DNA of 35,379 bases, from positions 1 through 35,379 of the forward strand of contig JAKEEP010000254.1 of the NCBI GenBank assembly GCA_022616475.1. The letters are read 5' to 3'. The stretch's first letter is position 1, and each line of letters opens with the position of its first letter. Below, one piece after another: positions 31,212 through 35,379 of this stretch. The position numbers and the translations under genes were made by a program. Under the pieces are notes generated by a model that saw nothing but the letters and a program-made list of their open reading frames with translations, was not told the DNA's origin and searched no databases. The DNA is from Phycisphaerales bacterium. GTDB taxonomy: Bacteria > Planctomycetota > Phycisphaerae > Phycisphaerales > SM1A02.

Positions 31212-32645
31212 TTACGGAGCAGGGGCGGCGGCGTTCGATGCCGTTTTCTCGGCTTGGCGTGCGGCGTCGCTGACCAACTCGCTGAGGGTCGGATGGGGGT
31301 GGATGGTCGCCGCCAGGTCGATCAGCGTCGCGCCCATTTCAATCGCCAGAGCGCCCTCGGAAATCATCTCGCATGCGTGCGGGCCGACCATTCCCACGCC
31401 TAGCACGAGCTGGCTTGGTGGATCGTAGATAATCTTGGTCAGGCCCTCGCCGCGTCCCATGCCGACCGCGCGGCCGGAAGCGCCCCACGGGATCTTCGCC
31501 GCCGCGTGCGGAATGGCCTCGGCTTTGGCTTCCTGCTCGGTCAGACCGCACCAGGCGATTTGAGGATCGGTGAAGATCGCGATCGGTATTGCCCGCGGAT
31601 CAAACCGCGCGCCCTGGTCCTTGCCGGCGATCGCTTCGGCCGCAACTCGGCCTTGCGCCAGGGCTTTGTCGGCCAGCAAGGGCGGCCCGGCGATGTCGCC
31701 CACCGCGAAGATGCGAGGATTGCTTGTGCGCATGTGGCCGTCAACTGTGATGAATCCCTCACCATTTAGACCAACCTGAACGCGATCAAGATGCAGGTCG
31801 CCAAGGTTCGGGCGGCGCCCGGCGGCTACAACCACACGATCAAAGCGAGCCGACTTGGCTGCGTCGTCGCCTTCGAAGGAAACTTCCATCGTGCCATCCT
31901 TCTTCCGCGCCGATTTCACGTTCGTTTTCAGCCACATGCCCCGCAACCGGTCCCCAAGCCGCCGAAGCAGCGGCCTGGCAATGTCGGCGTCAACCCCCGG
32001 CAGCCACTGCTCGCCTTCATCAACCAGCGACACCTTGCTTCCCAACGCCGCGTAGATCGAAGCCAGCTCCACCGCAATGTAGCCGCTGCCCACAACGAGC
32101 ATCGAATCAGGAATCTCGCTTACGGCCATCGCCGCTTCCGGGGTGACCACCAGGCGCTGATCGAACGGCAGAGCCGGGTGCTCGGCCGCAATTGAGCCGG
32201 TGGCGACCACCGCGCGCTTGAAGCGCAGCCGGGCGACATCGCCATCGCGGATCGCGAGATTTCGCGAGTCCTCAAAAACAGCGCGGCCCTTGATGCGCTC
32301 GACGCCGAACTTGCGGCATTGGCTGTCAAGACCCGCCGCGAGCTTTGCGATCGCCTTGGTGGTCCATTCGCGCACGCCCTCGGCCTTGAACTTGGGCTTG
32401 GTGAAGCTGACACCCATTTCAGATGCCAGAGACGCCGCGTTGATGATGTCGGCGATGTGCAAAAGCGTCTTGGATGGAATGCATCCATCGTGCAGGCAAA
32501 CGCCACCCAGCGCGCCCGAAGGATGCGCATCGACGATGACGGTCGACACCCCAAGTTCCGCCGCGCGAAACGCGCAGCTGTACCCGCCCGGCCCGCCGCC
32601 GATTACCACCAGGTCGGTTTCCTGCGTGAATTCGCCAACAACCAT
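31212..32645 (-). CDS. lpdA: Dihydrolipoamide dehydrogenase (E3)
   Basis: Encodes 477 residues from ATG 32645. E3 reoxidises the dihydrolipoyl groups of 2-oxo acid dehydrogenase complexes using FAD and NAD+. The FAD-binding motif VIGGGPGGYSCAFRAAELG is at about residues 14-32. The redox disulfide lies in GGVCLHDGCIPSKTLLH; the two cysteines are four residues apart as required, although Leu-His-Asp replaces the common Leu-Asn-xxx. The NAD-binding motif VVGSGYIAVELASIYAALG is at about 183-201. The catalytic His-Glu pair near the C-terminus appears as HPHPTLSELV. The enzyme should be active. It is downstream of the E2 gene and the zinc-ribbon gene with short spacers, so an operon is likely, though a TACACT hexamer suggests an additional internal promoter. 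Confidence 0.95.
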   Translation of the reverse strand: MVVGEFTQETDLVVIGGGPGGYSCAFRAAELGVSTVIVDAHPSGALGGVCLHDGCIPSKTLLHIADIINAASLASEMGVSFTKPKFKAEGVREWTTKAIAKLAAGLDSQCRKFGVERIKGRAVFEDSRNLAIRDGDVARLRFKRAVVATGSIAAEHPALPFDQRLVVTPEAAMAVSEIPDSMLVVGSGYIAVELASIYAALGSKVSLVDEGEQWLPGVDADIARPLLRRLGDRLRGMWLKTNVKSARKKDGTMEVSFEGDDAAKSARFDRVVVAAGRRPNLGDLHLDRVQVGLNGEGFITVDGHMRTSNPRIFAVGDIAGPPLLADKALAQGRVAAEAIAGKDQGARFDPRAIPIAIFTDPQIAWCGLTEQEAKAEAIPHAAAKIPWGASGRAVGMGRGEGLTKIIYDPPSQLVLGVGMVGPHACEMISEGALAIEMGATLIDLAATIHPHPTLSELVSDAARQAEKTASNAAAPAP

Positions 32646-33246: not shown

Positions 33247-34773
33247 TCAAAGCAGGAGGCGCGCTGGGTTCTGCAAATCGCCGATCACCTGCTGCATGAA
33301 CTGCACTTCCTGGCCGCCATCAAGGACGCGATGGTCGATTGAATGACTCAGCGGCATGATCAAGCGCGGCGCCAGGCCGCGTTGATGCGAGTAGGGCGAG
33401 GGCGGCAGGTGGGGGTATTCCGGGGGATCGCCTTCGATCACCCATGGTCTCCAGCGCGTGCGCCCGACGGCTAGTACAGCGACCTGCGGCGGCGTGATGA
33501 TGGGCGTCGAATATCGGCTGCCCCCCATCGCGCCAGCGTTCGAGATCGTGTAAGTTCCGCCACGCGTGTCGTTCACCGCGAAGGTGGCGGTGCGGGCCTT
33601 TTCACCGATCACCGCCAGCGCATCGCTGATCTGAGGAATGCTCATCTGATCGGCATCGCGAATGACCATCGGCACCAGGCCGCGCTCAGTGTGCACACCA
33701 ATGGCGATGTTGAAGTATCGCTTGTAGGTGATCTCATTCTTCTCAATATCGATGGCAGCGTTGAAGTCCGGAAAGCGCTGCAGCGCGCGAGCAACAGCTC
33801 GAACGACGAATGCCAGCAGCGTGATCTTCCGATCCGAGCCCTCTGGTGGAGCATAGCCCTGGCGCAGCTTGTCCAGCTCGGTGACGTCGGCATCATCGAA
33901 ATCGGTCGCGTGCGGAATGGTCGACCACGATTGCGACATGACCGTCGCAATGGTCTTCCGCGCCTGGGTCAGCGGCGCGCGCTTGATCGAGCCATATTGA
34001 TCGCTGGCGTCGGCGCCTTGCGGCTCGACAATGACCGATTCGGGCACCGCCGGATACGCAACGCGGGCAGCCACGACGCGCGGCGCAGCCGCCAAACTCC
34101 CTCTCCCTTTGGGAGAGGGCTGGGGTGAGGGCAGGCGCGCAGGGGGTGCTCCGTATTCCGGTGTGCTCATCGCGCTTCCGGCCCTCACCCCTAACCCCTC
34201 TCCCAGAGGGAGAGGGGGATTGCCGGAACTCGCCGCCATCTCCACATCCACGCGCTCGATGCGCCCTCCAGGACCGCTTCCGTTTACCGTTTCAATATCA
34301 ACGCCCAACTCACGCGCTAACTTCCGCACCGCAGGCGAAGCGGGCTTGCGGCCGACCTGATGTTTCCCCGCAATCGGCGACGAAGTCGCCGTTGAACTCC
34401 CTCTCCCTCTGGGAGAGGGTTGGGGTGAGGGCACGCGCGGAGCAGGCGTACCAAGTCGCTGATGATCGGTGGGGCTGCCGGCCCTCACCCCTGACCCCTC
34501 TCCCAGAGGGAGAGGGGAAATCGGTTCCGCGCCTGCTGCACCAAAGCTCACCATCACATCGCCAACGTGCACCATCTGGCCATCGCGCACGTGCACAGTC
34601 TCCACTACGCCGGCGAACGGCGAAGGAATCACCACCGCCGCCTTGTCTGTCTCGACCTCCATCAGCGGCTGATCCTCGCGCACCTGATCGCCCACGGCGA
34701 CCATCACGCGCACGATCTGCCCTTCATGCACGCCTTCACCAAGATCGGGGAGTTTGAAGTCTTTGGTTCCCAT
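33247..34773 (-). CDS. Dihydrolipoamide acyltransferase (E2) of a 2-oxo acid dehydrogenase complex
   Basis: Encodes 508 residues from ATG 34773. An N-terminal lipoyl domain (1-78) carries the lipoylated Lys44 in VETDKAAVV. The peripheral-subunit-binding domain is at about 141-178 (ASPAVRKLARELGVDI, GSGPGGRI). The catalytic domain (about 250-508) ends with the HxxxDG site as IDHRVLDGG, His481 and Asp485, so the enzyme looks active. The two linkers, residues about 86-127 and 186-227, are translations of palindromic repeat elements (LPLGEG..GVRA ... PSPQPSP.GRG). Acetyl, branched-chain or 2-oxoglutarate specificity cannot be fixed; the E1 genes are not in the window. It starts 3 bases after the HepT stop codon without its own Shine-Dalgarno, so translation may be coupled. 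E3 is encoded downstream. Confidence 0.93.
   Translation of the reverse strand: MGTKDFKLPDLGEGVHEGQIVRVMVAVGDQVREDQPLMEVETDKAAVVIPSPFAGVVETVHVRDGQMVHVGDVMVSFGAAGAEPISPLPLGEGSGVRAGSPTDHQRLGTPAPRVPSPQPSPRGRGSSTATSSPIAGKHQVGRKPASPAVRKLARELGVDIETVNGSGPGGRIERVDVEMAASSGNPPLPLGEGLGVRAGSAMSTPEYGAPPARLPSPQPSPKGRGSLAAAPRVVAARVAYPAVPESVIVEPQGADASDQYGSIKRAPLTQARKTIATVMSQSWSTIPHATDFDDADVTELDKLRQGYAPPEGSDRKITLLAFVVRAVARALQRFPDFNAAIDIEKNEITYKRYFNIAIGVHTERGLVPMVIRDADQMSIPQISDALAVIGEKARTATFAVNDTRGGTYTISNAGAMGGSRYSTPIITPPQVAVLAVGRTRWRPWVIEGDPPEYPHLPPSPYSHQRGLAPRLIMPLSHSIDHRVLDGGQEVQFMQQVIGDLQNPARLLL
34095..34217. repeat. REP-like palindromic element inside E2, second linker
   Basis: Two arms face each other: CTCCCTCTCCCTTTGGGAGA...GGGGTGAGGGC on the left and GCCCTCACCCC...CTCTCCCAGAGGGAGAGGGG on the right (34181-34217), around a 50-base centre. 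Each arm is itself a palindrome. The reading frame passes through and yields the linker after the subunit-binding domain. It lies exactly 300 bases from the second copy. Confidence 0.85.
34395..34518. repeat. REP-like palindromic element inside E2, first linker
   Basis: Same design as the copy at 34095-34217: nearly identical arms, with a 50-base centre of equal length but clearly different sequence. In the protein it gives the linker between the lipoyl domain and the subunit-binding domain. The frame is kept because the element length and position suit codon triplets. Confidence 0.85.
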
Positions 34774-34776
34774 GAA

Positions 34777-35112
34777 CTACTCGCGCGGCGCCAGACGCTT
34801 CAGATAGTTTACAACGGGCGGAAGTTCGAACGTCACTGCATCCCACACGACCTTGAGATCGATCTTGTCGTACGCGTGAATCAAGCGATCGCGCATGCCC
34901 GCGATTCTCGACCACGGTATTGAGTTGTGTGCAGTGCGGAACTCGCTGGAGAGCCGTTTGGCGGCCTCGCCCAATACTGCGATCTGATACACAACCGCCG
35001 ACTGCTTCTCGTAATTGGAACAAAACTCGTCAAAGCTGACGCCTTTGAGAAACTCGCCGATCGAATCCGCGGCCAGCAGCATGTCGAGCACCGCATCCGC
35101 GTCACGCTGCAT
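34777..35112 (-). CDS. hepT: HepT-like HEPN toxin (DUF86)
   Basis: From ATG 35112 (GAGG about 8 bases upstream) the protein has 111 residues; an upstream TTG at 35133 lies inside the partner gene and is less likely. It is an all-helical HEPN-domain protein. The active motif R-x4-H-x-Y is present as RDRLIHAY, and the flanking sequence (YQIAVLGEAAKRLS, GMRDRLIHAYDKID) is typical of DUF86. HepT toxins are RNases or are otherwise harmful until the tyrosine of this motif is adenylylated by MntA. The start overlaps the upstream mntA stop by 11 bases. Its TAG stop is 3 bases before the E2 start. Confidence 0.92.
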   Translation of the reverse strand: MQRDADAVLDMLLAADSIGEFLKGVSFDEFCSNYEKQSAVVYQIAVLGEAAKRLSSEFRTAHNSIPWSRIAGMRDRLIHAYDKIDLKVVWDAVTFELPPVVNYLKRLAPRE

Positions 35113-35379
35113 AGAGCAGCCTCGCGGATTCAAGAATCTCGCGCCGCCGAATCCAGTTGCGACTGCTCTCGATGCCGGCGCGCGTCATCAGATCGACCGG
35201 CCGCCCCAGCATTTCCTCCAATTCCTCCTCGGCGGCAATGAGATCGAGTAGTCCGTGCCTGGACTCCGGCGCGAAGGTGATCAGAAAGTCCAGATCGCTT
35301 TTGGGGCCGAAATCATCGCGCAACGCCGAGCCGAAAACTTCCAGGCGCACAATGTCCCACTTGCGGCAGAACTCCGCCA
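35102..35379 (-). CDS. mntA: MntA-like minimal nucleotidyltransferase antitoxin, 5' end beyond the window
   Basis: Partial gene: the frame reads through the window edge, and the visible N-terminal residues (AEFCRKWDIVRLEVFGSALR) belong to the family, so more codons lie outside. The nucleotidyltransferase motif GS-x10-D-x-D is complete: G-S, then ALRDDFGPKS, then D-L-D. Such proteins transfer AMP to the tyrosine of HepT and so neutralise the toxin. The C-terminal part (GRPVDLMTRAGIESSRNWI) is complete. The gene overlaps hepT by 11 bases, the usual arrangement in these operons. Confidence 0.9.
   Translation of the reverse strand, partial: AEFCRKWDIVRLEVFGSALRDDFGPKSDLDFLITFAPESRHGLLDLIAAEEELEEMLGRPVDLMTRAGIESSRNWIRRREILESARLLYAA

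Follow-up and report, generated by a model that had tools for sequence, protein, structure and literature searches.

BoxC/PIT-type palindromic pairs are read in frame in both linkers of a dihydrolipoyl acyltransferase (E2) gene of a Phycisphaerales bacterium

The E2 (dihydrolipoyl acyltransferase) gene of a Phycisphaerales bacterium carries two palindromic elements, one in each of its interdomain linkers, which judged by their sequence are BoxC/PIT ("TM", intrastrand triplex motif) elements made of one type-B and one type-A half each. It is very probable that these two inverted B+A pairs entered E2 in frame, stayed in disordered linkers and have had their arms maintained at the DNA level. E2 is not special in this respect, because at least six further conserved genes also read through a copy of this element, folded domains included. 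The window analysed is the whole stretch of 35,379 nucleotides of contig JAKEEP010000254.1, where the gene occupies 33247..34773 of the minus strand as an ORF of 508 aa with Pfam matches to Biotin_lipoyl, E3_binding and 2-oxoacid_dh. The encoded domains follow the usual order on one open frame that spans both elements: a lipoyl domain (34546..34761, minus strand, residues 5-76), an E3-binding (peripheral subunit-binding) domain (34240..34344, minus strand, residues 144-178), flanked by element 2 and element 1, and a catalytic acyltransferase domain (33250..33987, minus strand, residues 263-508), all assigned by Pfam. In a homology search, E2 homologues in named genomes came mostly from Phycisphaerales and other Planctomycetota. 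AlphaFold2, given a 34-sequence alignment, predicted both linker blocks to be disordered (pLDDT 33-53), with the domains mostly above 85. From reading the sequence, we take a nearby ORF (31212-32645) to be dihydrolipoamide dehydrogenase-like, and the adjoining stretch (34777-35379) presumably holds two short minus-strand coding stretches, HepT-like and nucleotidyltransferase-like, of toxin-antitoxin type.

Element 2 (34399..34516) lies in linker 1 as residues 87-125 and comprises a B half (34399-34432), a 48-base centre (34433-34480) and an A half (34481-34516). Element 1 (34099..34216) lies in linker 2 as residues 187-225, with a B half (34099-34132), a 48-base centre (34133-34180) and an A half (34181-34216). 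Each is a 118-base inverted pair of CCCTCTCCC-NNN-GGGAGAGGG with facing arms GGGGTGAGGGC / GCCCTCACCCC, and the palindromes, 21 bases each, fall at 34099-34119 / 34196-34216 in element 1 and at 34399-34419 / 34496-34516 in element 2. The spacing of palindromes within each pair is 97 bases, and the offset from element 1 to element 2 is exactly 300. Either side of the E3-binding domain, one element per linker contributes 39 in-frame residues, PLPLGEGSGVRAG...PSPQPSPRGRG from element 2 and PLPLGEGLGVRAG...PSPQPSPKGRG from element 1. Coordinates, ORF and Pfam matches thus agree with the initial annotation, which had described palindromic repeats read as E2 linkers, 300 bases apart and on both sides of the subunit-binding domain; the centres that it gave as 50 bases measure 48. 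Folded as RNA, both elements are much more stable than their dinucleotide-shuffled versions (z -7.9 and -7.6, reached by 0/200 shuffles each), and hairpins of this stability pose the question of how translation passes through them.

BoxC/PIT motifs are widespread bacterial repeats that have been described as intergenic DNA without known role. A half consists of a 21-base hairpin plus a G-rich arm, and the motif CCCTCTCCC-loop-GGGAGAGGG-loop-GGGGTGAGGG was matched by all four halves in E2 when they were set against Table 1 of PMC4666352. The sections of that paper on E. coli MG1655 report 23 BoxC/PIT/TM copies, all called intergenic, state that close inverted pairs always join a type A with a type B half, and present the intrastrand triplex as an in vitro property of an oligonucleotide. 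Both E2 elements pair, in inverted orientation, a type A half (second loop TTA-like) with a type B half (second loop CCG-like), and each has one short-loop and one long-loop half; some other clusters in the genome are A+A. The part of PMC2869309 on Enterobacter sp. 638 gives one hundred CCCTCTCCCXX(X)GGGAGAGGG palindromes, and the likeness to the elements described in these portions of the two papers extends to the 34-36 base motif, the A+B inverted pairing, the many copies per genome and the broad phylogenetic spread. The copies studied here differ from those that PMC4666352 tabulates for E. coli in being translated within genes, and in a pair spacing, mostly 95-98, that is wider than its table coordinates imply. 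Copies inside E2 and other genes depart from the intergenic location seen in MG1655; since location is no sequence feature, this marks a variant and is no bar to BoxC/PIT membership. Matches to Rfam families were mostly of microRNA type, far below gathering scores and meaningless for a long hairpin.

The E2 palindromes are not due to chance, because exact palindromes number 109 in the 3.66 Mb genome and the reversed-pattern control gave 0. BoxC/PIT halves amount to 38 with a short and 61 with a long second loop. The genome search that had been proposed at the outset showed that this same genome carries copies in sites that look intergenic as well as in coding ones. A census of loci with a recognisable half, incomplete and with a few sites counted twice where overlapping stretches cut a pair, gave 88 clusters in 90 loci (59 single palindromes, 27 doubles, one triple and one quadruple), and 14 of the 27 two-palindrome clusters had a spacing of 95-98. 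The exact palindrome was present in 13 of 41 genomes searched, source genome included, and a plasmid search returned halves in Enterobacteriaceae, Variovorax and cyanobacteria, mostly without an annotated gene beneath the match. Another 12 loci (L010, L017, L018, L024, L027, L028, L147, L153, L166, L170, L182 and L185), mostly outside clear genes, hold pairs whose centre of 47-48 bases, shorter in L010, L147 and L182, is conserved; this second set is a candidate for the unit that is mobile at present. In some of these pairs the outer flanks (ggtcaaatcc / gggcatg) are conserved as well. The element flanks showed no target-site duplication, and the four Y1_Tnp loci of the genome had no palindrome at up to 4 mismatches within about 1.5 kb on either side.

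Outside E2, 57 candidate frames were open through an element; 30 were scanned and 14 had a Pfam match, the other 16 being left out of the coding count. Homology extends to either side of the element in a carbon-nitrogen hydrolase (L018), a B12-binding/MeaB protein (L019), a histone deacetylase (L184), PutA (L199) and a ligase-associated Lhr-type helicase (L015), which has clusters at two sites, and to either side of a half in 6-phosphogluconate dehydrogenase (L149). In QueG (L006), homology is strong after the element and weak before it, and a further Pfam match, aconitase (L156), has the element behind its last domain. Less certain bearers are PaaB (L003), DeoC (L144), a polymerase-like protein (L004), whose ORF had no match among solved structures, and STAS, VWA and FG-GAP proteins; L010 is open on one strand and has its coding score on the other. 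Among relatives, six of the ten scanned ORFs with an open in-frame half matched Pfam, and the half falls within a domain in the RarA/MgsA ATPase of G008 and between domains in the Mfd of G022. The Lhr-type helicase is a second gene with a double insertion, its in-frame clusters (L015:178-312 and 1302-1533) holding three and four palindromes, some of the CCTTCTCCC variant. In 6-phosphogluconate dehydrogenase, the half (L149:1497-1517, genome G000, contig C18) codes PHPQPLSQRERG and, because the net gain is only one residue, has replaced native codons, so that it is no simple insertion.

To assess the phase of coding copies, a coding-potential model was trained on 82 of the genome's own ORFs. 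Where both flanks were coding on the same strand, 11 of 13 clusters were in frame and open at threshold 4 (P 2e-4), 14 of 17 at threshold 2 (P 5e-5) and 9 of 10 at threshold 6, with binomial P values that assume 1/3 for random phase and with neighbouring same-strand genes counted as frameshifts. Too close to the end of a stretch for this test were 14 of the 88 clusters, and both E2 copies were classed as 'one side coding' at threshold 4, and so stand outside the counts, because linkers score poorly. In seven A-to-B coding pairs (E2 twice, L003, L004, L006, L019 and L015), the first palindrome is read as a PLPLGEG-like peptide six times and as PSPSGRG once. The centres of the six PLPLGEG-like pairs are 48, 48, 48, 48, 42 and 27 bases long, all multiples of three. 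With two open frames, the same reading in six of seven has a chance of about 0.06, so that a preferred reading frame, for which the initial annotation had called for a check, is suggested.

The six same-frame coding pairs were also informative about the level at which the arms are conserved. Invariant positions at codon positions 1, 2 and 3 were 10/12, 10/12 and 10/11 in the A arm and 11/11, 9/11 and 10/11 in the B arm; variation was mainly in the hairpin loops, and the centres differed. This equal conservation at all three codon positions argues that the arm sequence is held by something acting on DNA, and suggests that the element peptides are passengers that the protein tolerates. The uniformity of the arms may alternatively reflect their recent arrival. 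A homology among the centres of coding pairs was considered and set aside: identity among the two E2 copies, L003 and L019, at 22-26 of 48 bases, was weakened to 13-16 of 35 once the end bases were removed.

From these observations we infer arrival by insertion, most likely as two separate events. A unit of two oppositely oriented halves, with palindromes about 97 bases apart, has several stop-free frames, and an insertion of fitting length and phase would merely extend the protein, while selection would purge out-of-frame insertions into genes. Both E2 copies would have been retained for having landed in disordered linkers, where some 40 Pro/Gly-rich residues would do no harm, and the enzyme with its element peptides presumably still works. 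The near-identity of the arms would stem from a DNA process (homogenisation among copies, or structure) and not from peptide selection. Weighing against this account are the flanks free of target-site duplications, the search around the Y1_Tnp loci that tied no transposase to the element, and the replacement of native residues in 6-phosphogluconate dehydrogenase.

Comparison with E2 of relatives bears on how the elements came to stay. The set of orthologues comprised 43 rows, some of them one gene fetched twice and two incomplete. Leaving aside the two incomplete rows, they are 404-481 aa long, and this E2 minus its two 39-residue peptides would be 430; linker 1 has 22-74 residues in the rows versus 67 here, and linker 2 has 38-67 versus 84. 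The initial annotation had recommended this comparison and had counted against its own reading any relative with the same linker sequence on DNA lacking the palindrome; none of the 43 rows shows this linker sequence, none contains an intact element, and a decayed half is found in G008 alone. A profile of the halves, run over 109 loci (504 kb), matched inside two E2 genes, those of G008 and L142, the matches in L119, L120 and L123 falling outside the matched E2 stretches. The G008 gene, from a single-contig genome, is the closest orthologue (58% identity) and has the decayed B half in linker 2, where its strand and frame are those of element 1 (29/36 bases, E 0.019), a match that was reached by 0/300 shuffles and by 0/500 dinucleotide shuffles. 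This half may go back to an old insertion common to both genes or to a second one that hit almost the same spot; in linker 1 of G008 no trace of the element was detected. At least one insertion may consequently be of early date and have been kept since, which would allow for a useful role. The other match (L142:2240-2360, E 3e-7) is an in-frame half in the E2 of a proteobacterial MAG, between the lipoyl (2-73) and E3-binding (121-156) domains, with a probable decayed partner beside it. When 392 genomes from this phylum were searched with a pattern that required an E3-binding motif after a half, it matched at 15 places, spread over 12 genomes and including the E2 of G000 itself. The pattern was rejected as non-specific because its reversed control matched at about two dozen.

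A tentative extension, possible but more doubtful than insertion and tolerance, is that BoxC/PIT pairs are a recurrent source of linkers, so that E2 would have been entered repeatedly (linkers 1 and 2 in Phycisphaerales, linker 1 in the proteobacterium), one insertion predating the split of two genera and the arms being kept by a process at the level of DNA that prevails over codon drift. If true, the element would write and rewrite protein linkers from the DNA side.

The proposal that a REP-like element had been domesticated as protein stood in one part, since the repeat is read in frame as linker. Functional domestication, in which the element peptides would be recruited as E2 linkers for their length, flexibility or the reach of the swinging lipoyl arm and kept by protein selection, now appears improbable. 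The presence of one element in each of two linkers predicted to be disordered would suit it, as would the decayed half that G008 retains, alike in linker, strand and frame, and the independent half with its probable partner in the proteobacterial E2. It is countered by the relatives whose E2 manages without the element, by the in-frame copies in at least six unrelated genes, within folded domains too, and by the arms, whose third codon positions are as conserved as the others, while the centres, equally linker, have diverged.

That one insertion was followed by duplication or conversion inside the E2 gene, be it of the element alone or of a segment of 300 bases, is slightly less probable still. 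The exact 300-base offset and the shared orientation and frame would fit such an origin, and the two centres are identical at 24/48 bases, which only 2/5000 shuffles reach; without the end bases, however, identity is 13/35, which 662/5000 shuffles reach, and elements from two further genes show just as much similarity. The repeat ends at the element and the E3-binding domain is single, which makes the domain duplication raised earlier unlikely; a tandem 300-base duplication was rejected, as the DNA between the copies is not repeated. A metagenome assembly artefact, with repeats misjoined into the E2 contig, might be suspected in a draft MAG of 331 contigs with several palindromes within about 50 bases of a contig start, but is highly improbable given the correct domain order on one open frame across both elements, centres that vary from site to site and the decayed half in the same linker of a single-contig relative.

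REPIN/RAYT systems also have two inverted palindromic units about 100 bases apart around a centre, in many copies; the elements described here share this architecture and differ in that no linked Y1 transposase was found. Closer in behaviour are the Rickettsia palindromic elements (RPE; Ogata 2000, 2002), which the sections of PMC10969869 and PMC2229807 dealing with them describe as translated palindromic repeats, some 100-150 bp long, that have been inserted in frame into conserved genes. The in-frame copies in several unrelated conserved genes correspond to this behaviour; as far as those descriptions, rather than RPE sequences, allow comparison, the present elements differ in phylum and in having the BoxC/PIT triplex motif as arms. 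Intragenic GTAG/CGTC REPs, in the part of PMC3733652 devoted to them, likewise form inverted dimers within ORFs in several phyla, at times two dimers per gene, as in one uvrA gene. The present elements had no adjacent Y1 transposase, and in the outer flanks of 58 A and 37 B halves, compared column by column, no GTAG or CGTC tag stands out. Translation within genes, already known for REPs and RPEs, thus extends to the BoxC/PIT family, and literature outside subscription journals yielded no earlier report of translated BoxC/PIT, of the element peptides, of palindromic E2 linkers or, under intragenic REPs of planctomycetes, of this case.

With in-frame BoxC/PIT copies in several conserved genes, one lineage offers a natural experiment in the absorption of repeated DNA by proteins, in the way a DNA element can preserve its sequence within codons and in the origin of linkers in multidomain enzymes. 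For annotation, the Pro/Gly-rich peptides LPLGEG..GVRA and PSPQPSP.GRG, together with ALTPALSQRER, should be taken as translated repeats and not as domains. An annotated DNA methyltransferase on a Pseudanabaena plasmid (L250:1501-1539, NZ_CP112877.1) holds an in-frame half, read as SPSPSGRGARGEG.
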